A stretch of DNA of 64,000 nucleotides from Salinicola tamaricis (GTDB taxonomy: Bacteria; Pseudomonadota; Gammaproteobacteria; Pseudomonadales; Halomonadaceae): positions 1,116,001 to 1,180,000 of the forward strand of contig NZ_CP023559.1 of assembly GCF_003006155.1 (NCBI RefSeq). Reading direction: 5' to 3'. Positions 22,089 through 39,553 of the stretch are shown in pieces. Every line of letters starts with the position of its first letter. Position 1 is the stretch's first letter. The translations under genes and the position numbers were made by a program. A model generated the notes under the pieces. The model searched no databases and had not been told where the DNA came from. It saw only the letters and a program-made list of their open reading frames with translations.

Positions 22089-22255
22089 GCCCGGATGACG
22101 CTCAGCAGATGCCCCAGGGGCTGCGCAGCACGGGCGAGTCAGAGGCCACCGGCTTGACATTCTCGCGCCATGGTCTGCACTCAAAGCCACGCCATGACGC
22201 ATCGATCCTGGGCATGGCGCGAGCACACTCAACCTCGATACGGAAGGATTCGTTC

Positions 22256-23044: not shown

Positions 23045-23084
23045 GGCCGCCCGCGCGCCCGAACTCAGGGCGGGAAGGGATGAT

Positions 23085-23106
23085 AGCGGGCGCCTCGGCG
23101 CCCGCT
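23085..23106. terminator. GC-rich hairpin between convergent genes
   Basis: AGCGGGCG-CCTCGG-CGCCCGCT, a strong hairpin between the secreted protein (plus) and the small membrane protein (minus). No T-run follows, so the terminator call is weak. Confidence 0.4.
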
Positions 23107-23168
23107 GTCGTCAGGCGCTTTGGCTGCCGATGAAAACCAGCCCTACCAGACGCGCCCCCCTGGCGGCA

Positions 23169-23399
23169 TCAGCCCTCCTCGCGGGCGGCGTCGCGCTGGC
23201 GCCGCTCGCGGTTGCGCCGATAGCGTCGAACCAGCGCCAGCCAGCCGGCGGCGACCAGCATTAGTGCCAGGGTCACACCCTGCCACGGGCGCGCCGCGTC
23301 GCCGAGCCAGGTCTCGAGGGCGATGATCGCGACGAAGCCTATCGCCTGTGAGGCGATCGCCATGCGTCGCAGACCGTCGCGCTGTGTCGTCGTCGCCAT
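23169..23399 (-). CDS. Small two-helix membrane protein
   Basis: 76 residues; ATG at 23399 (MATTTQRDGLRRM). Two hydrophobic helices, AIASQAIGFVAIIALETWLG and GVTLALMLVAAGWLALV, are followed by a highly basic tail (RRYRRNRERRQRD). No family recognised. It is divergent from rapA. A longer frame upstream overlaps the rapA promoter and is rejected. Confidence 0.6.
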   Translation of the reverse strand: MATTTQRDGLRRMAIASQAIGFVAIIALETWLGDAARPWQGVTLALMLVAAGWLALVRRYRRNRERRQRDAAREEG

Positions 23400-23508
23400 C
23401 CTGCCTCCCGCTGCCTCTGAATCGATCATTGCACCCGCACCGCCGGCCTCGGACGACTGCCGAACGCCGCGGCAGTGTAGCATCGCCACCCGTCGAGATG
23501 CGCAGCGC

Positions 23509-23536
23509 TTAAGACTGCCTCGCTTTACGCTAGAAT
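23509..23536 (+). promoter_or_regulatory. Probable rapA promoter
   Basis: TTAAGA (23509-23514), 16-bp spacer, TAGAAT (23531-23536), 39 bp before the rapA ATG. Confidence 0.5.
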
Positions 23537-23575
23537 GCGTCGCCCACTCCCCCCAGCTGAGCATACCGAGGCATC

Positions 23576-26510
23576 ATGAGCGACTTCACCCCCGGCCAGC
23601 GCTGGATCAGCGACGGCGAAACCGAGCTGGGACTAGGCACCATTCTCACGTCGACGCCCGCAGCGTGACCGTGCTCTTCACCGCCAGCCAGGAGACGCGC
23701 ACCTATAGCGCGCGCCAGGCGCCGCTGACCCGGGTCATCTTCGCCGCGGGGATCGTACGTCGATGCCGAGGGCCACACCCTCACGGTCAGCGACGTCGAG
23801 ATCGACGCCGGCTGTATCGCTACCACGGCCACGACGAGCAGGGCGCCCCGGCGACGCTGCCCGAGGCGCGTCTCTCCCGACAGCATGCGCTTTCATCAGG
23901 CCCAGGATCGCCTGCTCACCGGCCAGGTCGACGCAACGACTGGTCGAGCTGCGCTACGCTCGCTGCACCCATCAGCGCCTCTCGCGCAGCCCGGCACGGG
24001 TCTCGCCGGCCCCGCATCGACCTGATCGCGCACCAGCTCTATATCGCCGACGAGGTCTCCCGGCGCCACGCGCCGCGCGTGCTGCTGGCCGACGAAGTGG
24101 GCCTGGGCAAGACCATCGAGGCCGGCCTGATCCTGCACCGGCTGCTGCTCACCGGACGCGCCAGCCGTGCCCTGATCCTGGTGCCGCCGAGCCTTACCCA
24201 CCAGTGGCTGATCGAGCTGCTGCGCCGCTTCTCGATCTCGGTGACCCTGCTCGACGAGGCGCAGAGCGAGGCGTGGGGCGACGACAACCCGTTCGACAGC
24301 GGCCAGTGCATTCTCGCCAGCCAGGCGTGGCTGTTCGCCAATCCGCAGCGTCAGCGCCAGGCCGAAGCGAGCCAGTGGGATCTGATGATCGTCGACGAGG
24401 CGCACCACCTGGACTGGACGCCCCAGGCCGAGGGGCCGGGATACGCCTGCGTGGCACGCCTCGCCGCGCGCATTCCGGGACTGCTGCTGCTCACCGCGAC
24501 ACCGGAGCAGATGGGCCTGGAGAGCCACTTCGCGCGGCTGCGCCTGCTCGACCCGGATCGCTACCAGGATCTCGACCGTTTCAGCGCCGAAGAGGCCGGC
24601 TATGCCGCGGTGGCTGACGCCATCGACGCCCTCGACCGGCTGCCAGGCGAGGCTGCAGCGCTGGACGCAGTCAGCGCAGTGATCGGCGCGGGCGACGGCG
24701 ACAGCCAGGCGCTGCTCGCCACCCTCGCCAATGCCGAAAGCGACGACACCCAGCGCGCCAGTGCCCGCCGCCAGCTGCGCGAGCAGCTGCTCGACCGCCA
24801 CGGCACCGGGCGGGTGATGTTCCGCAATAGCCGGCGTCATGTGGGCGGCTTCCCCGAGCGCCACCTGCACAGCGCCGAGCTCGATATGCCGGCAGCCTAC
24901 CAGGCCCAGCTCGACGAGCTCGTCGCCGGCAACGACCATATCGCCGCGCAGCTGAACGCCGCCGAACTCGGCCAGCGGGAGGCGCGCCTCTACCCCGAGG
25001 CGACCTACCGCGCCGTACAGGAGGCCGCCCACCAGGCCGACACGCCCTGGTGGGAGCAGGACCCCAGGGTCACCTGGCTGCTTGGCCTGCTGGAATCACT
25101 CGGCCGCCAGACCAAGGTGCTGCTGATCGTCCACTATCGCCAGAGCGCCATCGATCTGGCCGAGGCCCTGCGCGTGCGCGCCGGCGTGCAGGCGCCGGTG
25201 TTCCACGAGGAGATGAGCCTGGTCGAGCGTGACCGCGCCGCCGCCGCCTTCGCCGACGACGAGGCCGGCTGCCAGTTGCTGATCTGCTCGGAGATCGGCT
25301 CCGAGGGGCGCAACTTCCAGTTCTGCCACCATCTGGTGATGTTCGACCTGCCGTGGCACCCCGATCTGCTCGAGCAGCGCATCGGCCGCCTCGACCGTAT
25401 CGGCCAGCTTCACCCCATCGATATCCACGTGCCGGTGATCGCCCACAGCCCCACCGCCACCCTGCTGCGCTGGTATCGCGACGGGCTCGACGCCTTCACC
25501 GCGCCGCACGCCGCCGGCGGCGATGTGCTCGACGCCTTCGGCGAAGCGCTGCGCGAGAGCCTCGACGACGAGAGCGGAGTGGACACGCTGATCGACGAGA
25601 CCCGCACCTTCAACGCCGACCGCCTGGCCCAGCGCGAGGCCGGGCGCAATCGCCTGCTGGAGTGGAATGCCTGCCGCCCCGAGCGCGCCGATGCGGTGAT
25701 CGCCGCGGTGCTCGAGCAGGACAACGATCCCGCCCTGCCGCGTTATGTCGATCAGGCGCTGGATATCTTCGGCGTCGACAGCCGCGAACTGGGCAACGCC
25801 CTGACCCATCTGGCGCCCGGCTCGCACATGCTCGATAGCCTGCCCGGACTCACCCAGGGCGACGAGGGCTTCACCGTCACCTATTCGCGCACCCAGGCGC
25901 TGGCACGGGACGACGTCCAGCGGCTGTCATGGGAGCATCCGCTGGTTACCGCGATGCTCGAGCGCGTGCTCGACTCGAGCCTCGGCAACACCGCCCTGGC
26001 GCTGCTCAAGCACCCCAGCATCCCCGGTGGCCGGCTGATGCTGGAACTGGTCTACCGCACCCACTGCCCCGCGCCCAAGCAGCTCCAACTGGCCGCTTCC
26101 TGCCCGACACCGGCATTCGCGTGCTGCTCGACGAGAGTGGCGCCAACCTATCGGACAAGGTCAGCTTCAGCGGCCTGTCGCGCAATCTGCAGCGGGTCAA
26201 GAAAGGAGTTGCGCGGGAGCTTCTGAAGTCTCGCCACGAGCAGCTGCGCGCGCTGCTGAAAAGCGGCGAGCAGGAAGCCCTGCGCGAGCTGCCGACACTG
26301 GTCGAGCGCGCCCAGACCGAGATGCGCGACACCCTCGACGGTGAGCTGGCGCGCCTCAAGGCGCTGGCCCAGCGCAGTGGCGCGATCCGTGCCGACGAGC
26401 AGGCCGCCTTGAGTCAGGAGCGCGCGGACTTGGATGCGGCGATCGAAGGCGCCGCGCTGCGCCTCGACGCGGTGCGGGTGATCGTGACCGTGGACAACGA
26501 GCAGCGCTAG
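23576..26510 (+). CDS. rapA: RNA polymerase-associated ATPase RapA (frameshifted N-terminal region)
   Basis: About 978 residues, like RapA/HepA (about 968). Swi2/Snf2 ATPase that recycles stalled RNA polymerase. The start MSDFTPGQRWISDGETELGL matches the family. Between about 23650 and 24000 the frame shifts several times (pieces such as SVTVLFTASQETRTYSARQA are in other frames). From 24000 it is clean: DEVGLGKTIE (Walker A), DEAHH (motif II), LLTATPEQ (III), and helicase C motifs ICSEIGSEGRNFQ and RIGRLDRIGQ. One more shift near 26090 precedes the C-terminal RVLLDESGANLSDKVSFSGL domain. The lengths and motifs argue for a working gene with sequence errors. Confidence 0.92.
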
Positions 26511-26523
26511 GCGCCGCTAGGCC

Positions 26524-27429
26524 TCAGCGCGGCAGGATCGCCGCCAGCGCCGCGTCGAGCGTGGGATAGGTAAAGCGGAACCCCGCCTCCTCGAGCCGCG
26601 CCGGGCGCATGCAGGCGCCGGTCAGCAGCAGCCGCGACATCTCCCCCAGCCCCAGCTTGAGCAGCGTGGCCGGCACCCGGAAAGGGGTCGGCCGATTGAG
26701 CTGGCGGCCCAGCGCGCGGGTAAACTCGGCATTGGTCACCGGCGCCGGCGCCGAGGCGTTGAAGGGCCCCGCGAGCGACGGCTCGGCGAGCAGGAACTCG
26801 ATCGCCGCGACCAGATCCTCACGGTGGATCCACGGCATATACTGGCGGCCGTCACCCAGACGGCCACCGAGCCCCAGCTTGAACACCGGCAGCAGCCGCG
26901 CCAGGGTGCCGCCATCCGCATCGAGGACCAGCCCGATGCGCACGCAGGCGACCCGGGTGCCGACCTCGGTGGCCTTGTTGGCCTCGCGCTCCCACTCTTC
27001 GCACAGCCGATGGGCGAACTCGTCGTGTGGCGGCGTCGACTCGGTGACATCACGCTCACCCTGATCGCCGTAGAATCCCATTGCCGACCCCGATACCAGG
27101 ACCTCGGGGGCGTCGCCGCTCTGCGCCAGCTGCTCGCACAGCTCCACGATCTCGCGGGTGATATGCCGGCGCGACTCGATCAGTCGCGTCTTCTGGGAGT
27201 CACTCCAGCGCTTGTCGGCGATCGGCTCCCCGGCCAGATTGACGATGCCTTGAGGGCGCTGGTCGGCGAACACCGCCACCGAGTCGCCCACCGAGACGGC
27301 TGCAGGAAGCTTTCGCCGCGCACGTTGCGGCTGGCGCGATACCACCATGACCTGGTGGCCAGCCGCCAGGGCGCGCTCGACCAGACGCTGGCCGACGAAA
27401 CCGGTACCACCGGTGATCAGAAGTCGCAT
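26524..27429 (-). CDS. TIGR01777/YfcH-family NAD-dependent epimerase
   Basis: 301 residues, intact. The Rossmann motif MRLLITGGTGFVGQRLVERA opens the protein. VNLAGEPIADKRWS, SGSAMGFYGDQGE and YMPWIHREDLVAAIEFLL are hallmarks of the TIGR01777 (DUF1731) group of extended SDRs, ending in PTLDAALAAILPR. The substrate is unknown. It is transcribed away from the MerR/LitR-like regulator, and homologues often lie next to photolyase and LitR genes, so it may belong to the same response. Its promoter holds a TTGTACAA palindrome. Confidence 0.85.
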   Translation of the reverse strand: MRLLITGGTGFVGQRLVERALAAGHQVMVVSRQPQRARRKLPAAVSVGDSVAVFADQRPQGIVNLAGEPIADKRWSDSQKTRLIESRRHITREIVELCEQLAQSGDAPEVLVSGSAMGFYGDQGERDVTESTPPHDEFAHRLCEEWEREANKATEVGTRVACVRIGLVLDADGGTLARLLPVFKLGLGGRLGDGRQYMPWIHREDLVAAIEFLLAEPSLAGPFNASAPAPVTNAEFTRALGRQLNRPTPFRVPATLLKLGLGEMSRLLLTGACMRPARLEEAGFRFTYPTLDAALAAILPR

Positions 27430-27442
27430 GGCACAGACCTCA

Positions 27443-27471
27443 GTTATACGAGTGTTGTACAATGTGCTCAG
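27443..27471 (-). promoter_or_regulatory. Epimerase promoter with TTGTACAA palindrome in the spacer
   Basis: On the minus strand CTGAGC (27466-27471), 17 bp, TATAAC (27443-27448). The perfect 8-bp palindrome TTGTACAA (27455-27462) sits in the spacer and shares the TGTACA core with the operator at 27700. A repressor bound there would block this promoter. Confidence 0.45.
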
Positions 27472-27699
27472 CATAGCAGTGTCAGTGGCACACTGCGTCA
27501 TCCAGCGGCCGTCTCGATACCTATTCGAGCCGGAGTGACAGCGATCCACCCCACGATACCCCGTGCGTATCGCGTCCTGTGGGCGTCTTACCCTGTGGAC
27601 ATCGAATAGCGCACACCGACGTGCCGAGTCAGCATCAGCACAGCGCCGGACATCCGCCCGCACCGAGGGGTGCACAACGCTTTCGTATTACATTAAAAT

Positions 27700-27723
27700 T
27701 GTACAAATCGCTTGAAGTGTACA
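27700..27723. promoter_or_regulatory. LitR-type operator TGTACA-N12-TGTACA
   Basis: TGTACA (27700-27705), 12 bp, TGTACA (27718-27723). Each half is itself a palindrome. As I recall it, the consensus for the class II LitR (PplR) of Pseudomonas putida is T(G/A)TACA-N12-TGTA(C/T)A, which this matches exactly. It lies in the region divergent to the epimerase and the MerR/LitR-like gene. Which promoter it governs is unclear, because no good -10/-35 pair flanks it. Confidence 0.65.
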
Positions 27724-28011
27724 ACGCATTCACCCATGCTTGACCCATGGACATCAATGTCGTCTCGCCGGAGCCGATGGATCTCGACAGCTCACGTCCG
27801 GGTATCACCAATCGATCATGACAAGAGGCCATGACCGATTCATCGGCGAACCCAGGTGACGTCGCCGGAGCAGCAGGGCAGAATTGGTAAACTGTATTCA
27901 AGCAATCAATTAGCGTAAGTGGACCCGAAGCTCCGTGGTGACGACCTGCAGTATCGATAAGCGTTCGATTCGACGAGATGGCGCACGCAGAGACCTCGCA
28001 GGAGGACTTGC

Positions 28012-28929
28012 ATGAGTTACAAGGCTATGGAATCCAACGCCGCGCCGCTCTACCCCATTCGCGAAGTGTCGCGCCTCACCGGCGTCAACTCCGTGACGCT
28101 GCGCGCCTGGGAGCGTCGCTACGGCCTGATTCGGCCACAGCGCACGCCCAAGGGCCACCGTCTCTATGCCCGCGACGATATCGAGCGCGTCGAGCGTATT
28201 CTGCAGTGGCTCAATCGCGGTGTTCCCGTCAGTCAGGTGCGCGAGCTGCTCGACCAGCCCGAGACGGTCGAGACCCCGGCACCGCAGATGGGGGACTGGT
28301 CGAGCCAGCGTCAGCACGTGATCCACGCGGTCGACGCCCTCGACATGGCACGCCTGGAGACGCTATTCAATCAGAGCCTGGCACTCTACCCGGTGGGGCT
28401 GTGCATCGCCGAACTATGGCAGCCCACCATCCAGCAGTTGGAAGAGCGCTGGGGCGACCAGTTTGGTGCCACCCTGCAAAGGCGCCTGCTCGAGACCTTC
28501 TTGCGCACGCGCATCGGTACCCGCCTCTACCATGCCAATCAGACCAATAGTGGCGGCGAACTGCTGATCGCGCGGTTGCCCGACGACACTAGCGGCTTCT
28601 GGGCCATGCTGATGGCGCTGGCGGCCTCGGCGGCGGGTTACCGCATTCAACTGATCGACGGCGAAGTGGCCCTGAGCGAGCTGCCAATGGCCGTCGACCG
28701 TCTCGGCATCAAGGCGGTACTGCTTGCCAGCGGCCAGGCCGAGCGCAGCGATCTGGTGCGCCGCCAGCTGCCACGGCTGGCAGAGCAGAGTGAGGTGCCA
28801 GTGTGTCTGGTGGGGCCGGTGGCGCGCATTCGCGTCAGCGACTTCGAGAACACCGAGGTCGCGGTGCTGGGCGAGGACACCACCCAGGCGCTCAGCCGGC
28901 TGCGCTCGATCGTCGACAACGAAGACTGA
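28012..28929 (+). CDS. MerR-family regulator, class II LitR-like (no B12 motifs)
   Basis: 305 residues; ATG at 28012 after AGGAGG. N-terminal MerR winged helix (about 13-80): YPIREVSRLTGVNSVTLRAW, ERRYGLIRPQRTPKGHRLYA, VSQVRELL. The C-terminal part (about 100-300) follows the layout of CarH/LitR sensors, with a helical bundle and a Rossmann-like domain. The adenosylcobalamin-contact signatures are absent: after the bundle Trp (ERWGDQFGATLQRR) the expected Glu-His is Arg-Arg, and the DxHxxG loop reads DDTSGFW. This fits class II LitR proteins, which respond to light through a partner LOV protein and not through B12. It is followed after 50 nt by the photolyase gene. Confidence 0.82.
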   Translation: MSYKAMESNAAPLYPIREVSRLTGVNSVTLRAWERRYGLIRPQRTPKGHRLYARDDIERVERILQWLNRGVPVSQVRELLDQPETVETPAPQMGDWSSQRQHVIHAVDALDMARLETLFNQSLALYPVGLCIAELWQPTIQQLEERWGDQFGATLQRRLLETFLRTRIGTRLYHANQTNSGGELLIARLPDDTSGFWAMLMALAASAAGYRIQLIDGEVALSELPMAVDRLGIKAVLLASGQAERSDLVRRQLPRLAEQSEVPVCLVGPVARIRVSDFENTEVAVLGEDTTQALSRLRSIVDNED

Positions 28930-28979
28930 GTGCGGTCTTCCCGACGACCGCCCCTCGAGATGGCCACAAGGAAGTGCCC

Positions 28980-30391
28980 ATGTCCGATCTGCAACTGGTG
29001 TGGTTCCGTAATGATCTGCGCACCTTGGACAACACCGCGCTGAGCGCCGCCGCTCAGCGCGGTCCAGTGATTGGCGTCTTTCTCGCCAGCCGCGAGCAGT
29101 GGCGCCGCCACCAGCACGGCCCCAACAAGATCGAATTCGTTCATCGCGGCGTACGCGCCCTCAGCGACGCCCTGGATGCGCTCAATATCCCGCTGCTCTA
29201 TCGTGACATCGGCGATTTTTCCCAGGCGCCCGAGGCGCTCGACGCGATCGTGCGCGAACATGACATTGCCACCCTGCACTTCAATCGCGAGTATCCCCTC
29301 GACGAGCGTCAGCGCGACGCCGCAGTAAGCGAGCGCTTACATCAGGCCGGTATCGTCGTCCACGACTACACCGATCATGTCGCCTTCGAGCCGGGTGAGC
29401 TGCTGACCGGCCAGGGTGACTACTACAAGGTGTTCACACCGTTCGCCAAGGCCTGGCATCAGCGGGTCACCGCCGAGCAGCTGGCCCTGCGTGATACACC
29501 GAGGCGTCAGAGCGCGCTCACGCTGACCCGCAATGCTATCCCGGCACTACCCGACGCGGATCGCTCCGCGGTGGTCGATGCACATACCTGGGTTGCCGGG
29601 CAGGACGCCGCAGCGGACAAGCTGGAGCGATTTCTCGACGCGCGCGCCCACCGCTACGCCACCGACCGCGACTTTCCCGCCCTTGCTGGCACCAGTGAAC
29701 TCTCGGCCTACCTCGCCACCGGCATGATCTCGCATCGCCAGTGCCTGCAGGCGTAATGGCCAACAACGGCGGCCATCTGGCCGGGTGACGCTGGCCTCAA
29801 GAGCTGGGCCAGCGAACTGATCTGGCGCGAGTTCTACAGCATGTCGCGGTGGGCTTCCCCGATATCTGCCGGCATCAGCCGTTCCAGAGCCATACCGCCA
29901 AGCTCAAGTGGCGCCATAGCGACGCCGACTTCGAGGCCTGGTGCAAGGGCAAGACCGGTTTTCCGCTGGTCGACGCCGCGATGCGTCAGCTTCTGGCTAC
30001 CGGCTGGATGCATAACCGTCTGCGCATGCTCACGGCGATGTTCCTGAGCAAGCATCTGCTGCTCGACTGGCGCCGCGGCGAGGCGTTCTTCATGGCGCAT
30101 CTGGTCGACGGCGACTTCGCCTCCAACAACGGCGGCTGGCAGTGGGCGGCCTCCACCGGCACCGACGCTGCGCCCTATTTCCGTATCTTCAATCCGATCA
30201 CCCAGTCCCAGCGTTTCGATCCGCAGGCCGAGTTCATCGCCCACTGGGTGCCGGAGCTGGCCGACCTGCCGGCCAAGTCGCGCCATCAGCCCAGCGCCAA
30301 CGAGCGCCGCGATACCGGGTATCCCCAGGCCATCGTCGATCACAAGCGTGCCCGCCAGCGCGCCCTGGACGCGTTCAAGGAGCTCGACTGA
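28980..30391 (+). CDS. phrB: Deoxyribodipyrimidine (CPD) photolyase (frameshifted)
   Basis: About 470 residues, as in class I CPD photolyases. Light-driven FADH- enzyme splitting cyclobutane dimers. The antenna domain starts MSDLQLVWFRNDLRTLDNTA; the FAD domain has YATDRDFPALAGTSELSAYL, FPLVDAAMRQLLATGWMHNR, LLLDWRRGEAFFMAHLVDGD and ASNNGGWQWAASTGTDAAPY, the last being the FAD/DNA-lesion site. The frame shifts near 29755, 29785 and 29845; restoring single bases recovers AVMANNGGHLAGDAGLKSW and EFYQHVAVGFPDICRH. It is probably the first effector gene under the upstream regulator. Confidence 0.92.
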
Positions 30392-30452
30392 GCGCCCCTC
30401 GGCGGCACCCGGGGCGTCTGTGGCCGGCGCGGCCACCCACCGGGAGCGTGTC

Positions 30453-30896
30453 ATGACCGTAACCTCCGCCGGCGCCAGCGCCGAAGCGATCGCTCACTTT
30501 CGCAGTCTGTTTCAGCCGCTGACTCATGAGGGCCTGACGCCACTCGCCGAGTGCTACAGCGACGACGTGGACTTTACCGACCCCCTGCACCACCACGTCG
30601 GCCGACGCGCAGTCATGGCCTACTACCGCGAGCTGATGACCGAGGTCAGCCACTGCCACTTCGACTTTCACCAGCAGCACGTTCTGGATCAACGCTGCTT
30701 TCTCGAGTGGACGATGCACTATGCGCATCCAAGCGTGCGCGGCGGACGTACCTTGAGCGTGGCCGGCTGTTCGCACCTCACCTGGCGCGATCAGCGGGTG
30801 TGCCGTCACCGTGACTACTATGACGTCGGCGAGATGCTCTACGAGCAGCTGCCACTGATCGGCTGGGTCGTGCGCCGGATCAAGCAGCGCCTCTAA
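30453..30896 (+). CDS. SnoaL-like / NTF2-fold protein
   Basis: 147 residues, intact. The ATG at 30453 follows GGGAGCG; the longer frame upstream overlaps phrB and is rejected. The pattern LAECYSDDVDFTDPLHHHVG, then AVMAYYRELM and CFLEWTMHY, matches the SnoaL-like cone fold, with conserved Asp and His in the cavity. Such genes commonly sit next to phr-SDR-FAD-Cfa clusters; the substrate is unknown. Confidence 0.75.
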   Translation: MTVTSAGASAEAIAHFRSLFQPLTHEGLTPLAECYSDDVDFTDPLHHHVGRRAVMAYYRELMTEVSHCHFDFHQQHVLDQRCFLEWTMHYAHPSVRGGRTLSVAGCSHLTWRDQRVCRHRDYYDVGEMLYEQLPLIGWVVRRIKQRL

Positions 30897-31008
30897 GGCT
30901 GCGTACGAGAGCTGACTGCACTCGCCGACTTCTCGTGCACAGCCTAGGCCGTGGGTGAGAACGTCACACCCATGCTATATCGATGATTGAAGAGAGCAGG
31001 GAGAGATT

Positions 31009-31798
31009 ATGGCCAGCCTATCCGGAACTCGACGCATCTGGTTGACCGGCGCCACCTCCGGCATTGGTGAGGCGCTGGCCAAGCGCCTGCTCGCCGACGG
31101 CCATCGGGTGGCACTCACCGCGCGCCGGGAGGAAGCGCTCCAGACGCTGGCCGCGGGTTATCCCAACGCCCTGGTGGTGCCCGCCGATCTCACCGATCGC
31201 GCCGCGACCCGGCGCGCCGGCGCGGCGATCGAGGAGGCCTTCGGTGGTCTCGACATCGCCCTGCTCAACGCCGGCACCTGCGAATATGTCGATGTGCGCG
31301 AGTTCGACGTCGAGCTGGTCGAGCGCGTTCGCCACCAACTTCCAGGGCACCCTCTACGCCATCGACGCCGCCCTGCCGCTGCTGCGACGTGCCGAAGGGC
31401 GCACCCAGGCGCCGCTGCTCGCCGCGGTCTCCAGCGCGTCCGCCTATCTGCCGCTGCCGCGCGCCGAGGCCTATGGCGCCTCCAAGGCGGCGATCTCGCA
31501 CTTCCTGGAGTCGCTGCGCCTCGATTTGGCCGCCGAAAGGATCGACGTCAGCGTGATCCACCCGGGCTTCGTCGAGACGCCGCTGACCGCACGCAATGAC
31601 TTCTCGATGCCGATGCAGATCAGCGCCGAGCGCGCCGCCGAGTACATCGTCGAGGGGCTGGCCAAACGGCGGCTGGACATTCACTTCCCGCGCCGCTTCA
31701 CCTATCTGGTCAAGGCGCTGGGCGTGCTGCCGCCGGCCCTGCGACGTCGCTTCGGCCTGCGTATCGCCGGCCGCGGGCGTGGCGGAGGCGAGGCATGA
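31009..31798 (+). CDS. Short-chain dehydrogenase/reductase (one frameshift)
   Basis: About 263 residues. Cofactor motif TGATSGIGEAL near residue 14, NAG motif LLNAGTCEY, catalytic Ser in AAVSSASAYLPL and Tyr/Lys in YGASKAAISHF. HPGFVETPLT follows. The frame breaks near 31328 (VERV then FATNFQGTLYAIDAAL). Its last base overlaps the next ATG (ATGA), so it is translationally coupled to the FAD enzyme. The oxidised substrate is unknown; a lipid or aldehyde intermediate is a guess from context. Confidence 0.85.
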
Positions 31799-33144
31799 GC
31801 GAGCAGGATACCCACACCGCGTCGCCTGGCCCGACAGGGCAGCGCATCGCGGTGATCGGCGGCGGCATCGCCGGCATGGCCGCGGCCCACTATCTGTCGC
31901 AGCACCACCGGGTGACGCTCTACGAGGCCGGTGCGCGCCTGGGCGGGCACACCGCCACCATCGACGTCGAGCACGCCGGGCGCGAATACGCCATCGACAC
32001 CGGATTCATCGTCTTCAACGATCGCACCTATCCCCATTTCCAGGCGCTGCTGGCATCGCTAGGCGTGGCCACCCAGCCCACCGAGATGAGCTTTTCGGTG
32101 CACGAGCGCGGGCGCGACTTCGAGTACAACGGCCACACCCTGGCCACTCTGTTCGCCCAGCGGCGCAATCTGCTGCGTCCGCGCTTTTACCGCATGCTGG
32201 CGGATATCCTGCGCTTCAATCGCCGCGCCATCCGCGACTTCGAACAGGACCGCCTGCCTCCGGCGCTGAGCCTGGACGAGTACCTCACGGCCGGCGGCTA
32301 TGGTGAGGACTTCCGCCGCCGCTATCTGCTGCCCATGGGCGGAGCGATCTGGTCCGCCAGCGAGGCCGGCATGCGTGCCTTCCCTGCGCGCTTCTTCATT
32401 CGTTTCTTCCACCACCACGGCCTGCTGTCGGTCAGCGACCGCCCCCAGTGGTACACCGTCAGCGGCGGCTCGCGACGCTATATCGAGCCGCTGATCGCGC
32501 CCTACCGCGAGCGGGTACACCTGCACAGCCCGGTGACCGCGCTGCACCGCGATGCCGACGGCGTGACATTGACCACTCCCCGGGGCGAGGCACGCTTCGA
32601 TCAGGTGGTGCTCGCCTGCCACAGCGATCAAGCGCTGGCGATGCTGGGCGAGACGGCCACCGCCGCCGAACGCGAGATCCTCGGCGCCATCGGCTACGCC
32701 AGCAACCGCGTGGTGCTGCACACCGACACCCGTCTGCTGCCACGCCGGCGCCGTGCCTGGGCAAGCTGGAACTACCGCCTCGACGGCCGCGATGCCGAGG
32801 CCTGCGTGCCAGTGACCTACAACATGAACATCCTCCAGCGGCTGGAGAGCGATACCACCTTCTGCGTCACCCTCAACGACGAGGCGCAGATCGATCCAGC
32901 GCAGATACTCGCACGCTTCGACTACGCCCACCCGCAGTTCACGCTGGCCGCCCAGTACGCCCAGACACGCTTCGCCGAGATTTCCCAGCCGGCGCGCCGC
33001 ACCCACTTCTGCGGCGCCTACTGGCGCAACGGCTTCCACGAGGATGGGGTGTGGAGCGCCTGGCGCGTGGCCCAGGCGATCGACGGTGCCGCCGCCGCAC
33101 CGGCACCGAACGCAGCCCGCCCTGCCGGTAGCGAGGTGGCCTGA
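31795..33144 (+). CDS. FAD-dependent amine-oxidase-like oxidoreductase
   Basis: 449 residues, intact. Dinucleotide-binding motif RIAVIGGGIAGMAAAHYLS, then YEAGARLGGHTATID, typical of the NAD(P)-binding/flavin amine-oxidase superfamily. IDTGFIVFNDRTYPHFQALL and MGGAIWSASEAGMRAFP mark the subgroup found beside DUF1365 and cyclopropane-synthase-like genes. The C-terminus has the FAD-binding CGAYWRNGFHEDGVWSA. In Rhodobacter a related enzyme in a Cfa-linked cluster is thought to act on methylated fatty acids (furan fatty acid route), so desaturation or oxidation of acyl chains is a reasonable inference here. Confidence 0.88.
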   Translation: MSEQDTHTASPGPTGQRIAVIGGGIAGMAAAHYLSQHHRVTLYEAGARLGGHTATIDVEHAGREYAIDTGFIVFNDRTYPHFQALLASLGVATQPTEMSFSVHERGRDFEYNGHTLATLFAQRRNLLRPRFYRMLADILRFNRRAIRDFEQDRLPPALSLDEYLTAGGYGEDFRRRYLLPMGGAIWSASEAGMRAFPARFFIRFFHHHGLLSVSDRPQWYTVSGGSRRYIEPLIAPYRERVHLHSPVTALHRDADGVTLTTPRGEARFDQVVLACHSDQALAMLGETATAAEREILGAIGYASNRVVLHTDTRLLPRRRRAWASWNYRLDGRDAEACVPVTYNMNILQRLESDTTFCVTLNDEAQIDPAQILARFDYAHPQFTLAAQYAQTRFAEISQPARRTHFCGAYWRNGFHEDGVWSAWRVAQAIDGAAAAPAPNAARPAGSEVA

Positions 33145-33941
33145 TGGCGCCCGCCCCGCGCCCTTGGCACAGCCGGCTCGCCACCGGGCAGCTTCGACAC
33201 CGCCGCTTCATCCCCACCCAGCACCGTTTCGACTACCGGGTGTGGATGCTGTGGCTCGATCTCGACGAACTCCCGGCGCTGCTGGCCCGCACCCCCGGCT
33301 TCGGCACCCGGCGCTACGCCCCGGCACGCTTTCGCCGTGAGGACTACCTGGCGCCGCACGCACTGCCGCTGGCGGACGCCGTGCGCCAGCGGCTAAGTGA
33401 AGAACTGGGCGAAGAGCTGGGCGAAGAACTGAGTGAGGTCACGGACGGCCCGATTCGCATGCTGACCCAGCTGCGTCTGTTCGGGGTGCTGTCCAATCCG
33501 CTCACACTCTATTACGTCTACGATCGCCACGAGCGCCTGCGCGCCGTGCTCGGCGAGGTCACCAACACGCCCTGGGGCGAGCGCCAGGTCTACGCCTGCC
33601 GGGTCGACGACACGCGCCACCTGTGCCAGGCGCAGTTCGACAAGCGCCTGCACGTGTCGCCGTTCAACCCGATGGCGATGATCTACCGCTGGCGCTTCAA
33701 CCGCCCCGATGAGCGCCTGCTGATGCACATGGAGACCTGGGCCGAAGCGGCCCGGCATTTCGACGCCACCCTGACCCTGAGCCTGGCGCCGGCGACCCGG
33801 CGTGCGCTGGTCGGCGAGCTGCTGCGCCATCCGCTGATGACGCTGAAGACGATCGCCGCGATCCACTGGCAGGCGCTAAGACTGTGGCTCAAGCGCACCC
33901 CCATCCACGATCACCCAGGACGAGAGCAGAATACGCCATGA
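33144..33941 (+). CDS. DUF1365 family protein
   Basis: 265 residues, intact. Starts one base into the stop of the FAD gene and ends overlapping the next ATG (ATGA). The family core is visible: RHRRFIPTQHRFDYRVWMLW, IRMLTQLRLFGVLSNPLTLY, KRLHVSPFNPMAMIYRW. A 12-bp triplication at 33399-33434 encodes EELG-EELG-EELS near residue 90. The family has no firm biochemical function; it nearly always sits between the FAD enzyme and the Cfa-like methyltransferase, so it likely takes part in the same lipid modification. Confidence 0.88.
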   Translation: MAPAPRPWHSRLATGQLRHRRFIPTQHRFDYRVWMLWLDLDELPALLARTPGFGTRRYAPARFRREDYLAPHALPLADAVRQRLSEELGEELGEELSEVTDGPIRMLTQLRLFGVLSNPLTLYYVYDRHERLRAVLGEVTNTPWGERQVYACRVDDTRHLCQAQFDKRLHVSPFNPMAMIYRWRFNRPDERLLMHMETWAEAARHFDATLTLSLAPATRRALVGELLRHPLMTLKTIAAIHWQALRLWLKRTPIHDHPGREQNTP

Positions 33942-35215
33942 CCACCGCCCCCTCCTCGACCGTCGACCGGCGCCGCGATGCGCCGCGTCTGTCGCGCTGG
34001 CTGCGGCCGCGCATCCTGAAGGCGCTGGACGCGCTCGATGGCGGCGTGATCACGCTGCACGAAGGCGGCCAGCGGCACCGCCTGGGCCGCGGTGATCCCG
34101 CCGCGACCGATACTCTGGTGCTCTGCGTGCGCGTGCACAGCGCCGCGGTGTGGCGGCGCTTTGCCCTCGGTGGCACCGTCGGCGTGGCCGAGTCCTACAT
34201 GGATGGCGAATGGGAGGTCGACGACCTGGTGGGGCTGGTGCGCCTGTTCGCACGCAACGTCGAACGCGTCAACGCCGGCATGGAGAACGGCACGGCGCGT
34301 CTCAGCCGCTGGGCGCTGGCCGCGCTCTACCCCTGCAGCGCAACACCACCCCGCGCGCGGCGGCATATCGCCGCGCATTACGATCTCGGCAACGAGTTGT
34401 TCGCGACCTTCCTCGACCGCGACCACTGGATGTACTCCAGCGCCGTCTTTCCGCATCCGAGCGCAACTCTGGAGGAGGCCTCGACCCATAAGCTCGATCT
34501 CATTCTCGACAAGCTTGCGGTCGAATCCCACCATCACCTGCTCGAGATCGGCACCGGCTGGGGCGGCCTGGCGATCCATGCCGCGCGCACCCGCGGCTGC
34601 CGGGTGACCACCACCACCATCTCCGAAGCCCAGTACGCCTACACCGCCGAGCGCGTGCGCGAGGCCGGGCTGGAGGCGCAGATCACCCTGCTGCGCGAGG
34701 ATTACCGCGCACTCACCGGACGCTACGACCGCCTGGTTTCGGTGGAGATGGTCGAGGCGGTGGGGCATCAGTATCTCGATACCTATCTCGGCTGCGTCGA
34801 CCGCCTGCTCACTGATGATGGCCTGGCCCTGCTGCAGTGCATCACCATCCGCGATCAGCGCTTCGAGGCAGCCAAGCGCGAGATGGACTTCATCAAACGC
34901 TATATCTTCCCCGGCGGCTTTCTGCCCTCGCATACCGCCATCCTCAGCGCACTGAGCCGGCACACCCAGCTCAACCTGCTCGACCTGGACGAGATCGGCC
35001 TGCACTACGCCCGTACCCTGCGCGAGTGGCGCCAGCGCTTCGAGGCGAACCTCGAGCGAGTACGCGAGCTGGGCTACGACGAACGCTTCATCCGCATGTG
35101 GCGCTACTACCTGTGCTACTGCGAGGGCGGCTTCGTCGAACGCGCCATCGGCACCTGCCATCTACTGCTGGCCAAGCCCGGCGCACGCCGGGCGCCACTC
35201 AGCGGGCAGCCGTGA
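33938..35215 (+). CDS. Cyclopropane-fatty-acid-synthase-like SAM methyltransferase
   Basis: 425 residues, intact; ATG at 33938 overlaps the DUF1365 stop. SAM-binding motif LLEIGTGWGGLAIHAAR near residue 200. The preceding AAHYDLGNELFATFLDRDHW and MYSSAVFPHP match the Cfa family, as do FIKRYIFPGGFLPS and YYLCYCEGGFVERAIG, which include the active-site Cys/Glu/Tyr region. It methylates unsaturated acyl chains of phospholipids, giving cyclopropane or methylated products. The operon context resembles stress- and light-induced Cfa paralogues, not the stationary-phase cfa gene. Confidence 0.9.
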   Translation: MTTAPSSTVDRRRDAPRLSRWLRPRILKALDALDGGVITLHEGGQRHRLGRGDPAATDTLVLCVRVHSAAVWRRFALGGTVGVAESYMDGEWEVDDLVGLVRLFARNVERVNAGMENGTARLSRWALAALYPCSATPPRARRHIAAHYDLGNELFATFLDRDHWMYSSAVFPHPSATLEEASTHKLDLILDKLAVESHHHLLEIGTGWGGLAIHAARTRGCRVTTTTISEAQYAYTAERVREAGLEAQITLLREDYRALTGRYDRLVSVEMVEAVGHQYLDTYLGCVDRLLTDDGLALLQCITIRDQRFEAAKREMDFIKRYIFPGGFLPSHTAILSALSRHTQLNLLDLDEIGLHYARTLREWRQRFEANLERVRELGYDERFIRMWRYYLCYCEGGFVERAIGTCHLLLAKPGARRAPLSGQP

Positions 35216-35237
35216 GGCGCCCACCGGTAGCTCGGCC

Positions 35238-35730
35238 ATGAGCCAGCGCCGCCCACTCGCCCTGGTGCTCAACGCCCTGGCCTTCCAGGTCGGCTGGTTC
35301 GTCTGCGTGCTGGGCGGCTCGCTACCGGCTGCTCGCCCTGGGGGTGATTCTGGCCGCTCACTGGCGCTGGCTGGCGCGACCCGGCGAATGGCGCTGGTGG
35401 CTGGGCTTCGCGCTGCTCGGGGTGGTCGTGGACGGCAGCCTGGTCGCCCTCGGCGGCATCCGTCTGGCCGCGGGCTGGCCGCTGTGGCTGTGGGCGCTGT
35501 GGCCGCTGTTCGCCACCACCCTGCACCACTGTCTGGCGTGGCTGTGGCCGCATCGCTGGCTGGCGCTGCTGTGCGGCGCCGTGGGGGGCCCGCTGAGCTA
35601 TCTCTCGGGGGCGGCGCTGGCCGGAGCAGAGATCGCCACTTGGGCACTGGCGGTGGAAGCGCTGGTCTGGGCGGGGCTATGCGCCGCGGTCAGCAGGCGA
35701 TTGGGAGGCGCCGGCCCGGCTCAGGCGTAG
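35238..35730 (+). CDS. DUF2878 membrane protein (one frameshift)
   Basis: About 164 residues. The first frame reads RRPLALVLNALAFQVGWFVC then breaks near 35325; the next frame reads RLLALGVILAAHWRWLARPG, LGFALLGVVVDGSLVALGG and further transmembrane helices to a TAG at 35730. This is the DUF2878 pattern of four or five helices. It is the last gene of the phr-Cfa unit, 22 nt after the methyltransferase. Its end overlaps the convergent GGDEF-EAL gene by 10 nt. Confidence 0.78.
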
Positions 35731-37542
35731 GTCGTACTGGCCGGTTTCAAGCGCTGGGCCACGGCGCTGGCGGGCTGCGGGCGGGCATAGAGGAAGCCCT
35801 GGACGTGGCGGCAACCACGCGCCATCAGGAAACTGCGCTGGGCTTCGGTCTCCCCCCCCGGCGATCACGTCGAGGTTAAGTCCCTGAGCCATCGCCAGCA
35901 CCGCCGAGGTGATCGCCGCATCGGCGTGGTCATGCGGCAGCGCGCGGATGAACTCGCGGTCGAGTTTGAGCTTGTCGATCGGTAGCCGCTTGAGATAGGC
36001 CATCGAGGAGTAGCCGGTGCCGAAATCGTCGATCGCGATCTGCAGCCCTTCGCGGCGCAGCGCTTCGAGCCGCGGCGAGATATCGCCGGCGCGCTCGTCG
36101 AGCAGCACCGACTCGGTGAGTTCGAGGCCGAGATAACTCGGCGCCACCCGGTACTGGCTCAGGGTCGAGATCAGACGCGACTCGAGATCGCCCTGGATCA
36201 GCTGCAGGGCGGAGATGTTGACCCATACCGGCACCACCGTCAGCCCCTGGTCGCGCCAGTTGGCGAGCTGCGCCACTGCCTGATCGATGACCCAGGCGCC
36301 CAGCGCCGGCATCAGCCCATGGCGCTCCGCCAGCGGAATGAAGTCGCCGGGGGGAATCATGCCCTCCTGGGGATGGTGCCAGCGCAGCAGCGCCTCCATG
36401 CCGATCAGCTCACCATCGTCGAGACGGTGCTGGGTCTGGTAATAGACCTCGAGCTGCTCGTTCTGCGCCAGCGCCTGACGCAGCTCGTTGATGATCGCCA
36501 ACTGGCGGTCGCCCTCGACCTCGAGCGATGGGCGAAAGCGGCGATCGTGGTTGCGGCCATGGCGTTTGGCGCTATAGAGCGCCGATTCCAGGCGCTGGAA
36601 CAGCACGCCCGCCTCCTTGCCATCCTCCGGCGCGCGGCAGCTGCCGATGGTCAGTCCCAGGCGAAGGGTGTTGTCGTCGATCTCGAACGGCTCGCTGAGG
36701 TGCTGGCGCAACCCCGCCACCCACTTTTCATGATCATCGAAAGTGGTGGTCCGGATCACCATGAACTCGTCACCGCCGAGCCGCCCCACGATGCCTCCGG
36801 CGACCTGCGCCGCCAGCCGCTGGCCGAAACGCGCCAGCAGGCGGTCGCCACTATCCACCCCGAGGCCGTCATTGATCGCCTTGAAGCCATCGATATCGAT
36901 CAGCGCCAGGTCCAGCCCCTCGCCGGCGCGCAGGTGGCGCAGCCGGGAGGCGAGCAGATCGTGCAGCCGCCGCCGGTTGGGCAGTCCGGTCAGCGGATCC
37001 TCGAAGCCAATCCGGCAGATCCTGTTCGCGCGCCTTGTGGCGGCTGATATCGGTGAACAGGCCGACATAGTGCGACACCCGCCCTTGCTGTCGTGCAGGC
37101 GCGCACACGCAGCCACTCCGGGTACTGGTCGCCGTGCTTGCGCTGGTTCCAGATCTCGCCTTCCCAGCGCCCGGTGGCGGCGAGCGCCTGCCAATAGCGC
37201 TCATAGAAGGCCTTGTCGTGGCGCCCGGAGGAGAGTGCGGAGGGTCGAGTCCCTCGATCTCGTCGAGGGTATAGCCGGTGATCTGGGTGAAGGCGGGGTT
37301 GATGGTGATCAGACGATTGGCGGCATGGTGATCATGATGCCGTCCGGGAGAGTTCGAGCGCCTGCTCGCTGAGCCGGCGGCGTTGGTGCTCGAGACGGAT
37401 CTGGCGCCAGCCATCGGCCAGACCGACCACGACCAACGCTAGCGCCGCGAGGCGAAGCATCAGAAAGGGCAACAGGCTGGCGGCGGCCAGCGCCGCGAGT
37501 CCCCCAGACCAGCGGTCGATTCAGCGAAAAAGAAGGCCACAT
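35721..37542 (-). CDS. Membrane PAS-GGDEF-EAL cyclic-di-GMP protein (frameshifted)
   Basis: About 607 residues. ATG at 37542 ([13 protein letters not shown]); after an early shift the frame gives one or two membrane helices ([20 protein letters not shown]). A PAS domain ([32 protein letters not shown]), a GGDEF domain ([27 protein letters not shown], active-site motif intact) and an EAL domain ([38 protein letters not shown]) follow. Shifts lie near 37500, 37330, 37240, 37090, 37025 and 35857. At the last site eight C replace the codons of the conserved AEGVE motif, so its Glu cannot be read. It makes or degrades c-di-GMP; which dominates is unknown. Confidence 0.85.
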
Positions 37543-37809
37543 AGATCTTCGGTTATGGTCGTTATACGAATCGACTCAGGTCGATACTCACCCACTCGCT
37601 CCCGCCTCGCATCATGCCCCCTCGGCGCGCGCCAGGGCAAGCGCAGCCGGCGACACCCTCCAGGCGCGGCGCCAGGCTGGCCGCAATTGCACGTAAAAGC
37701 GCACAAGACTAGCCTTTGGGCCACGTGCATTCGCTGCCCACAGCCATTAGACTGGCCCCGCCTCGCAACCCATGGGGGCACACTCTTTTTCGATTCTCGG
37801 AACGATCTA

Positions 37810-38325
37810 GTGACCAGACAGCACTCTTTCAGCCACGACGATCTGCTGAAATGCAGCCGGGGGGAACTGTTCGGCCCCGGCAACGCCCAGCTCCCCGCGC
37901 CCAACATGCTGATGCTCGATCGCATCACGCAGATCAACGAGGATGGCGGCAAGTACCACAAGGGCGAGATCATCGCCGAGTTGGATATCCACCCCGACCT
38001 GTGGTTCTTCCAGTGCCATTTTCCCGGTGATCCGGTGATGCCGGGCTGCCTCGGCCTCGACGCCATGTGGCAGCTGGTCGGCTTTCATCTCGGCTGGCTG
38101 GGCAACCCGGGGCGCGGTCGGGCACTGGGTTGCGGCGAGGTCAAGTTCTCGGGCCAGATCCTGCCCGACGCCGGCCAAGTCTCCTACCACATCGAGATCA
38201 AGCGCGTGATCACGCGGCGCCTGGTTCTGGGGATTGCCGACGGCACCCTGGCGGTGGACGGCAAGGACATCTATCAGGCCAAGGATCTACGCGTCGGCCT
38301 TTTCACCAACACTGAGACTTTCTGA
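37810..38325 (+). CDS. fabA: 3-hydroxydecanoyl-ACP dehydratase/isomerase FabA
   Basis: 171 residues with a GTG start at 37810 ([20 protein letters not shown]), which gives the family length; a longer frame upstream is rejected. Conserved core: [15 protein letters not shown], active-site His in [14 protein letters not shown] and Asp in [17 protein letters not shown], then [14 protein letters not shown]. It dehydrates 3-hydroxydecanoyl-ACP and isomerises it to the cis-3 form, the branch point to unsaturated fatty acids. It is followed after 13 nt by fabB, the usual fabAB operon. The ribosome-binding site is weak. Confidence 0.93.
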
Positions 38326-38338
38326 GCGGGAGGCTTCC

Positions 38339-39553
38339 ATGAAACGAGTGGTAGTCACCGGACTGGGTATCGTGTCCTGTCTGGGCAATGACGCCCAGCA
38401 GGTACTGGACGCCCTGCGCCAGGGACGCTCCGGCATTCGCTACAAGCCGGAATACGCCGAGCTCGGTTTCCGCAGTCAGGTGGCGGGGAGCGTGGAGATC
38501 GACATCGACGCGCTCGTCGACCGCAAGCAGCTGCGCTTCATGGGCGACGCCGCGGCCTATGCCTATATCGCCATGCAGCAGGCGATCGACGACTCGGGCC
38601 TGGCGGCCGACGCCATCTCGAATCCGCGTACCGGCCTGATCGCGGGCTCCGGCGGCGCCTCCAGCGCCAACCAGGTCGAGGCGGCGGACATCATGCGCCA
38701 GAAAGGCCTGCGCCGTGTCGGCCCCTATCGCGTCACTCGGACCATGGGCAGCACCGTCTCGGCGTGCCTGGCGACACCGTTCCAGATCAAGGGGATCAAC
38801 TACTCGATCTCCTCGGCCTGCGCCACCTCCGCGCACTGCATCGGCAGCGCGGTCGAGCAGATCCAGCTGGGCAAGCAGGATGTGGTCTTCGCCGGTGGCG
38901 GCGAGGAGGAGCACTGGACGCTGTCGTGCCTGTTCGACGCCATGGGCGCGCTGAGCACCGGCTACAACGACACGCCGGAGAAAGCCTCGCGCCCCTACGA
39001 CACCGATCGCGATGGCTTCATCATCGCCGGCGGTGGCGGCATGCTGGTGATCGAAGAGCTGGAGCACGCCAAGGCGCGCGGGGCCAAGATCTATGCCGAG
39101 ATCACCGGCTACGGTGCCACCTCCGACGGCCACGACATGGTCGCCCCCTCGGGTGAAGGCGCGGCGCGCTGCATGCGCCAGGCACTCGCCGGCCTCGACG
39201 GCAGCGTCGACTACATCAATACCCACGGCACCTCGACGCCGGTGGGCGATGTCGCCGAGCTCAAGGCGATCCGCGAGGTCTTCGGTGACAGCACGCCGGC
39301 GATGAGTTCGACCAAGTCGCTCACCGGCCACTCGCTGGGCCACCGGGGTCCAGGAAGCGATCTATTCGCTGCTGATGATGGAAACCGCTTCCTGTGCGCT
39401 TCGGCCAACATCGACAATCTCGATGAACAGGCCAGCGGTTTCGATATAGTGCGAACGCGCCGTGACGACGTCGAGATCAAGCGCGTGCTCTCCAACAGCT
39501 TCGGCTTTGGCGGCACCAACGCTTGCCTGGTGTTCGACCGCTACGACGACTGA
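38339..39553 (+). CDS. fabB: 3-oxoacyl-ACP synthase I FabB (compensated frameshifts)
   Basis: 404 residues; ATG at 38339 after GGGAGG. Catalytic Cys in [14 protein letters not shown], His in [13 protein letters not shown], Lys/His in [12 protein letters not shown]. It elongates cis-3-decenoyl-ACP for unsaturated fatty acids. Between GHSLG and [10 protein letters not shown] (39345-39400) the translation [16 protein letters not shown] is foreign; adding two bases at the start and one G at the end gives [18 protein letters not shown], the normal sequence. The net loss is three bases, so the frame looks intact although about 18 residues are wrong. Confidence 0.93.

Follow-up and report, generated by a model that had tools for sequence, protein, structure and literature searches.

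A window of 64,000 nt from Salinicola tamaricis (contig NZ_CP023559.1, positions 1,116,001 to 1,180,000 of the forward strand) was analyzed, and we describe here the genes at positions 26524 to 35730, which encode a MerR-type repressor, a cyclobutane pyrimidine dimer (CPD) photolyase and a block of predicted lipid-modifying enzymes (Table 1). We regard it as quite probable, by analogy with characterized systems, that these genes form a blue-light-derepressed operon that combines DNA repair with the production of protective furan fatty acids. Pfam and NCBIfam profile searches bore out the gene families, the order and the strands given in a first-pass annotation of this DNA, with the genes from MerR to DUF2878 on the plus strand and the TIGR01777 family gene in divergent orientation. 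Overlapping starts were also found, although three rather than the four claimed there: the coding regions of the short-chain dehydrogenase (SDR) and UfaD share 4 bases, those of UfaD and UfaO 1 base, and those of UfaO and UfaM 4 bases. UfaM and DUF2878 are separated by 22 bases, and the SnoaL-like gene and the SDR gene by 112 bases. The assignment of the CPD photolyase held as well, with both halves matched; the intact orthologue of locus L008 (93–94% identical to the window copy, which was searched as two parts) passed the deoxyribodipyrimidine photolyase equivalog with 552.7 bits compared with a cut-off of 506. The MerR protein is 100% identical in strain MFB021, 98% identical in Salinicola endophyticus CPA92 and 81–83% identical in 13 other Salinicola loci.

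Table 1. Genes and predicted regulatory elements between positions 26524 and 35730 of the window.
Feature	Position	Strand	Evidence
TIGR01777 family NAD-dependent epimerase-like protein	26524..27429	-	NCBIfam TIGR01777 327.8 bits, cut-off 207.35
LitR operator (predicted), TGTACA-N12-TGTACA	27700..27723		Fits the PplR1/PmlR2 consensus of PMC9758184
Predicted promoter, TTGAAG-N17-CATGCT	27712..27740	+	−35 box starts within the operator
MerR-type repressor, class II LitR-like	28012..28929	+	Pfam MerR_1 E 1.4e-18
CPD photolyase, two frames in the assembly	28980..30391	+	DNA_photolyase E 4.3e-45, FAD_binding_7 E 5.6e-77
SnoaL-like protein	30453..30896	+	SnoaL_2 E 5.2e-17
SDR, two frames in the assembly	31009..31798	+	adh_short in each part
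UfaD, FAD-dependent methyl-branched acyl desaturase (predicted)	31795..33144	+	Amino_oxidase E 2.8e-28
UfaO, DUF1365, furan-forming oxygenase (predicted)	33144..33941	+	DUF1365 E 3e-77
UfaM, acyl-phospholipid methyltransferase (predicted)	33938..35215	+	CMAS E 7.5e-78
DUF2878 protein, two frames in the assembly	35238..35730	+	DUF2878 E 3.8e-19 in the second part

The predicted operator upstream of MerR was compared with those of Pseudomonas. The PplR1 consensus is T(G/A)TACA-N12-TGTA(C/T)A, and in P. mendocina TGTACA-N12-TGTACA sites have been footprinted, one of which covers the −35 box (PMC9758184). The site at 27700–27723 has the same half sites and the same spacing as the footprinted sites and, as a predicted operator at a regulated promoter, matches the class II LitR consensus. 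It is the sole exact TGTACA-N12-TGTACA in the genome; when one mismatch was allowed, 5 places were found genome-wide, versus 1 for a reversed control. Conservation of its position was assessed in 29 loci oriented to the MerR strand, that is, 30 LitR loci minus that of the own genome. A like site is present within 450 bases upstream of MerR in 28 of them, compared with 0.03 expected from base shuffles; all 17 Salinicola loci and 11 of the 12 loci from other genera have it, L093 being the sole miss. Alignment of the upstream regions showed that TTGTACA and GTACAA are kept at the operator position in the window and in 15 Salinicola loci. At the 28 sites and that of the window, a TTGnnn element starting in the operator is followed by N17-CATnCT in 25 of 29 cases (misfits: L090, L092, L096 and L097). 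The −10 box CATGCT resembles TATAAT only weakly, and a consensus promoter scan did not report the promoter at 27712–27740; the −10 box is thus a prediction from conservation. Two further features were noted in this intergenic region. A single TGTACA half site, for which no N12-spaced partner was seen by eye, is located at 27456–27461 just upstream of the TIGR01777 start, and also occurs in some other Salinicola. A gene for a CbiX-type chelatase, which was not seen in the window, lies between epimerase and operator in genome G019 (L154:958-1371) and, as judged by eye on aligned upstream DNA, in several Salinicola, including the gap before MerR in L009.

A possible light sensor is encoded far from the operon. 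A search with PpSB1-LOV revealed one short LOV gene in the genome, at G000:C1:447937-448350, an open frame that is 66% identical to residues 1–138 of the query. It contains the adduct-cysteine motif DCRFLQ and has PAS-type matches only, with no effector domain; the frame was read as 185 residues, and the true start is probably later. An orthologue with 81–98% identity is present in all 15 named Salinicola genomes, in each case with the cysteine motif. The joint occurrence of LOV and LitR was determined in 151 family genomes, including the own genome, with cut-offs of E 1e-20 for LitR and E 1e-25 for LOV. LitR was found in 143 genomes and a LOV match in 131; five of the latter (G020, G044, G130, G151 and G165; E 1.9e-27 to 2.7e-33), which are long frames in the four cases with a listed position, were left out of the short LOV group, so that 126 remained. 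Both proteins occur together in 125 genomes, LitR only in 18, short LOV only in 1, and neither in 7. Thus, 125 of the 143 genomes with LitR also have a short LOV, versus 1 of the 8 without it (Fisher p = 1.1e-5, uncorrected for relatedness).

Among the alternatives, the one that survives best, although we consider it unlikely, is that the repressor responds to reactive oxygen or some other signal and not to LOV. This has been proposed for a MerR protein of Vibrio cholerae that is encoded beside a photolyase and whose response is tied to reactive oxygen (PMC5241685). The 18 LitR-bearing genomes without a short LOV, which include strong LitR orthologues and the Salinicola genome G058, would fit such a mechanism and imply that LOV cannot always be the partner. 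Against it stand the skewed co-occurrence just described and the light-dependent binding between LOV and LitR in P. mendocina (PMC9758184). Both the V. cholerae precedent and the incomplete co-occurrence also weigh against light control of the operon, as do four other observations. The LOV gene is unlinked to the repressor gene, at a distance of about 0.7 Mb from the operon. At E 0.1, Pfam did not list B12-binding_2 for the repressor, whereas PmlR1 and PmlR2 have this domain. One predicted site copy precedes MerR here, versus two in P. mendocina. Finally, 31 family genomes contain 44 forward operator sites versus 51 sites of the reversed pattern (in six Salinicola genomes, 20 versus 10), and we therefore rejected the genome-wide count as proof of a regulon. 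As the family counts are not above the control, it is the position of the site, and not the number of sites, that speaks for the operator.

The operon is not uniform within Salinicola. The epimerase, MerR and photolyase genes are present in all 15 named Salinicola loci, with the epimerase gene divergent from MerR in each of them, whereas the lipid block (SnoaL, SDR, UfaD, UfaO and UfaM) follows the photolyase in 8 loci and is missing in 7. DUF2878 accompanies the block in 6 of the 8. A whole-genome search for DUF1365 was positive for the same 8 genomes and for none of the other 7, and these 7 retain LOV, repressor and photolyase. In L009, one of the shorter loci, the photolyase is directly followed by a GGDEF/EAL gene, the one found downstream of the block in the window. 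When the presence of the block was mapped onto a tree of 29 loci, three changes were needed, and this number held when only starred branches were used. The pattern is probably read most simply as repeated loss, given that the block occupies this position in the 13 outgroup loci as well; the outgroups were picked for having UfaO, and the tree is thus no measure of the frequency of the block.

Frame changes are found inside the photolyase, SDR and DUF2878 genes of the window assembly. Together with the probable losses within the genus, they would be compatible with an operon that is decaying in this strain and in which these three genes are pseudogenes. All three are open in L008, and in L007 the parts of the photolyase lie in one frame, as do those of the SDR; the orthologues of the three genes in the two loci are 91–99% identical. 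Short gaps relative to L007 occur in the photolyase, SDR, DUF2878 and UfaM genes. However, gaps of the same kind, 1–2 bases in length, also run through the neighboring genes, with 15, including one insertion, in or at the start of the RapA gene and 7 within the GGDEF/EAL gene. Altogether, the region from 22000 to 38900 (RapA, photolyase, SDR, UfaM, DUF2878 and GGDEF/EAL) has many short gaps, mostly deletions, versus two near relatives, and indels appear to have been left uncorrected in the assembly of this region. This gap pattern, and the fact that the genome is a single contig of 4,276,240 bases with a completeness score of only 93.25%, point to assembly error as the probable cause of the three broken frames. 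On the basis of the gap pattern versus L007, we ranked pseudogene decay below assembly error and regard it as very unlikely.

The enzymes of the lipid block belong to families involved in forming methylated and furan acyl chains, as the first-pass annotation had proposed. UfaM, UfaD and UfaO turn cis-vaccenoyl chains into the furan fatty acid 9M5-FuFA; UfaO, the DUF1365 protein, is necessary and sufficient for the last step, the furan oxygen derives from O2, and furan synthesis does not require the remaining three genes of the R. sphaeroides operon (PMC7380195). DUF1365 can thus be removed from the list of families that had been annotated as lacking a biochemical role, while no assigned role was found in the literature examined for DUF2878, the SnoaL-like protein or the epimerase. 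The view that the complete pathway was undescribed has likewise to be given up, as UfaM-UfaD-UfaO is known (PMC7380195) and so is a similar light-induced operon (PMC9758184).

UfaM resembles cyclopropane synthases, and a Cfa-like enzyme that makes ordinary cyclopropane chains, in a membrane-hardening gene set with no furan pathway, had to be weighed as an alternative. The NCBIfam matches of UfaM are to cyclopropane synthases, all of them under the curated cut-offs. Over-expression of a Halomonas UfaM in E. coli led to the methylated intermediate 11-methyloctadec-12-enoate, and was also accompanied by cyclic acids (PMC12089945). However, compared with three solved cyclopropane synthases, the UfaM of L008 has YSSA instead of YSCA, EAVG instead of EHVG, and LLQ instead of LLH or LIH, and the window UfaM has the same letters at all three motifs. 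We take the altered positions to be the bicarbonate site of cyclopropane synthases. A text pattern search of 29 UfaM homologues yielded S in 26 and A in 1 at the first position (2 unread), A in 20 at the second (9 unread) and Q in 26 at the third (3 unread); the C or H of the synthases was found in none of the 29 where the motif was readable. In addition, tblastn searches showed that UfaD, UfaO and UfaM are adjacent in all 20 UfaO-centred loci from other genera, with an SDR beside them in 19 and a SnoaL-like protein in 15. Based on the motif residues, the identity of UfaM as a cyclopropane synthase was rejected, and this alternative appears very unlikely. Among the literature matches listed, there were no published Salinicola fatty acid profiles with 11-methyl-18:1.

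For UfaO, structure prediction offered a further clue. The model (predicted local distance difference test, pLDDT, 91.6) is mostly beta, with ten strands and four helices, two of which are C-terminal. Foldseek found no match at E 0.001, neither in the main search nor in the viral library, and a search of PDB sequences with a UfaO profile gave nothing credible. The best Foldseek hit was the fatty-acid-binding-like structure 3bdr (E 3.8e-3), and three of the six top hits were nitrobindin mutants (E 1.1e-2 to 2.9e-2). As a weak lead, the model points to a barrel of the calycin type, a shape that would be suitable for an acyl substrate and perhaps for haem. Over 25 homologues, the most distant of which is 30% identical to the window copy, 32 columns are invariant, including His 19 and His 27.

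The repressor itself is predicted to have the fold of CarH. Its AlphaFold model (pLDDT 85.6) comprises a helix-turn-helix head, four helices at 96–178 and a tail of alternating strands and helices, and CarH structures are its best-scoring matches in the PDB (E 4.5e-14). In the profile searches, a MerR head was recognized, the B12-type tail remained under the Pfam cut-off, and the CarH profile was matched with 113 bits versus a cut-off of 400. In an alignment with Thermus CarH over residues 10–244, EEH and ERHEIG of CarH are replaced by QRR and DDTSGF, respectively. We assume that EEH and ERHEIG are the cobalamin-binding residues of CarH. Thus, the repressor is probably a CarH-fold protein that has lost B12 binding, in agreement with the original description of a LitR-like repressor without B12 motifs. 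Class II LitR proteins have been described in such terms (PMC9758184), and the assignment of the repressor to this class is based on its predicted fold, residues, operator and neighbors. It is the one full-length LitR of the genome, the second match being 34% identical over residues 15–107; a plasmid search for named LitR relatives returned 13 records, none of them from Pseudomonas. The Pseudomonas class II LitRs have been called B12-dependent (PMC11417400); contrary to this, B12 was unnecessary for light-induced transcription by PplR of P. putida (PMC9758184). A true CarH with adenosylcobalamin as light sensor, in favor of which the structural and profile matches and the first of these two reports could be cited, is hardly credible in view of the Pfam result and the P. 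putida data, and was rejected because of the replaced residues QRR and DDTSGF.

The arrangement extends beyond Salinicola. UfaO is present in 91 of the 151 family genomes, and in 79 of these it shares the strand of MerR and follows it at a distance of 3.8–4.6 kb, an arrangement that goes beyond chance. It lies elsewhere in 11 genomes (in G023, a contig ends at MerR), and in G043 no match to MerR was obtained. In genus g4, the ufa genes are found beside genes for an extracytoplasmic function (ECF) sigma factor and a ChrR-type anti-sigma factor in all four loci examined (L104, L105, L108 and L109; domains checked in L105). In L108 and L109, ufaD is preceded by TGATC-N17-CGTAA, a sequence in agreement with the sigma-E motif given in PMC5241685; L105 has a near match, and in L104 a match lies on the sigma-factor side. 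None of the four g4 genomes contains a LOV match at E 1e-25. L105 has DUF3833 in place of DUF2878. The stretches around UfaO in L103, L106 and L107 (G039 and genus g3) yielded no match to MerR or to the sigma pair. The SDR and, less often, the SnoaL-like protein thus accompany ufaD-ufaO-ufaM on both sides of this exchange of regulators, while L105 has DUF3833, and for this reason the two may act on the lipid; one guess is that they renew spent furan chains. It is a speculative idea, which we rate as rather improbable, that they complete a closed antioxidant cycle, in which the SDR would reduce the dioxo chain opened by singlet oxygen and the SnoaL-like protein would help to close the ring again. 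The block would then be a light-switched, self-renewing membrane quencher, and a cassette including the SDR and often the SnoaL-like protein would have moved between LitR/LOV and sigma-E/ChrR control within one family.

Additional sites indicate which other genes may belong to the predicted regulon. In the own genome, a one-mismatch site (L003, about 736.8 kb) precedes a DPRP-family gene, which we take to be cryB, and the ferrochelatase gene hemH is divergent from it. Three others (L004, L005 and L006; 2.90–2.94 Mb) are situated before a DUF6482 gene, before a small Zn-ribbon-like gene (under Pfam cut-offs), and between a second, paralogous Zn-ribbon-like gene and a Tudor-domain gene. The cryB form of the site is present in 6 of 6 further Salinicola genomes, and all five whose loci were examined adjoin cryB and hemH; two more Salinicola (L162 and L163) agree. 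Zn-ribbon genes also stand next to sites in L057, L068, L069, L072 and L164. In other genera, sites precede folE (L148 and L150, two genera), separate a fasciclin gene from a divergent small gene (L152 and L155; genera g8 and g13), or are found before a gene with the two RudS domains ahead of LitR (L154). The cryB, hemH, DUF6482, Zn-ribbon and Tudor genes were absent at the sites in 17 stretches from other genera (of 20 examined). Both cryB and folE belong to the Pseudomonas light set, and RudS is encoded in a Pseudomonas LitR operon, where a light-induced removal of 4-thiouridine has been proposed (PMC11417400). As site counts in the family are not above the control, each regulon member is only as good as the position of its site. 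The divergent arrangement of hemH and the cryB-like gene over a LitR-like site is a recurrent feature in Salinicola, and haem synthesis and the light response may be coupled in this genus.

The closest known system is the pmlR1 operon PME6650-PME6610 of P. mendocina, with the PplR1 set of P. putida. The P. mendocina operon is light-induced and consists of nine genes, that is, LitR, photolyase, SDR, a flavin adenine dinucleotide (FAD) protein, UfaM and four hypothetical genes, and light raises the expression of ufaM and phrB 25–33-fold (PMC9758184). The likeness to light-induced Pseudomonas genes noted by the first-pass annotation is therefore real: the same set is united in one operon, TGTACA-N12-TGTACA lies over the −35 box, and the genome encodes a short LOV. 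Differences are that one full-length LitR is present here, while P. mendocina has two and P. putida three, and that MerR is the first gene, whereas the P. mendocina operon begins with PME6650, which appears to be the desulfidase RudS; no RudS-type gene was found in the Salinicola operon, to which this examination was confined. The three enzyme families of lipid modification are those of Rhodobacter sphaeroides and Rhodopseudomonas palustris; the ufa genes are adjacent here and consecutively numbered in R. palustris (RPA2569-2571), and furan production in R. sphaeroides rises when ChrR is lost (PMC7380195), whereas here the genes sit behind LitR. The g4 cluster shares UfaD-UfaO-UfaM and the SDR with the Salinicola operon, and differs in its ECF sigma/ChrR-type neighbors. 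Halomonas sp. YLGW01 presumably belongs to the same bacterial family as Salinicola. As in Salinicola, its ufaD, ufaO and ufaM are consecutive, and light is not mentioned in the accessible part of the paper (PMC12089945). Among the matches listed in the openly licensed literature, there was no report of a LitR/LOV system in Halomonadaceae.

Taken together, the results are consistent with the following mechanism. In the dark, the CarH-fold repressor without B12 residues would occupy TGTACA-N12-TGTACA over the −35 box and keep the expression of MerR, photolyase and lipid genes low. In blue light, the unlinked short LOV protein would form a flavin-cysteine adduct, bind to the repressor and lift it off the operator. 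Photolyase would then repair ultraviolet lesions, while UfaM would methylate cis-vaccenoyl chains of membrane phospholipids, UfaD would desaturate the methylated chains, and UfaO would insert oxygen, the resulting furan acyl chain acting as a singlet-oxygen quencher. Light itself, and not damage, would thus start protection. Gene content and conserved order, the operator, the predicted CarH fold with the loss of B12 residues, the LOV gene with its cysteine motif and its co-occurrence with LitR were observed in the genomes analyzed here; the light switch is proposed after P. mendocina, and the lipid product after R. sphaeroides and R. palustris. The overall picture of light, repair and lipids drawn by the first-pass annotation is likely right, and the operator at 27700–27723 and the distant LOV gene are additions to it. 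It is well supported that the operon is a further case of LOV-LitR light operons with a furan-lipid pathway, and not a new pathway.

This reading would bring the LOV-LitR switch known from Pseudomonas into a second family, one that is salt-loving, as a lean version with one repressor and one receptor in this genome, and would couple the switch to an antioxidant-lipid pathway that is already defined. In Salinicola, species that have the block and species that lack it, all of which have kept repressor, receptor and photolyase, would be natural pairs for assessing the worth of furan lipids in light; S. halimionae and S. salarius form one such pair, S. lusitanus and S. corii another. Moreover, as the same enzymes are associated with a light-sensing regulator in most genera and with a damage-sensing one in another, the family may allow anticipation of photo-oxidative stress to be compared with reaction to it.

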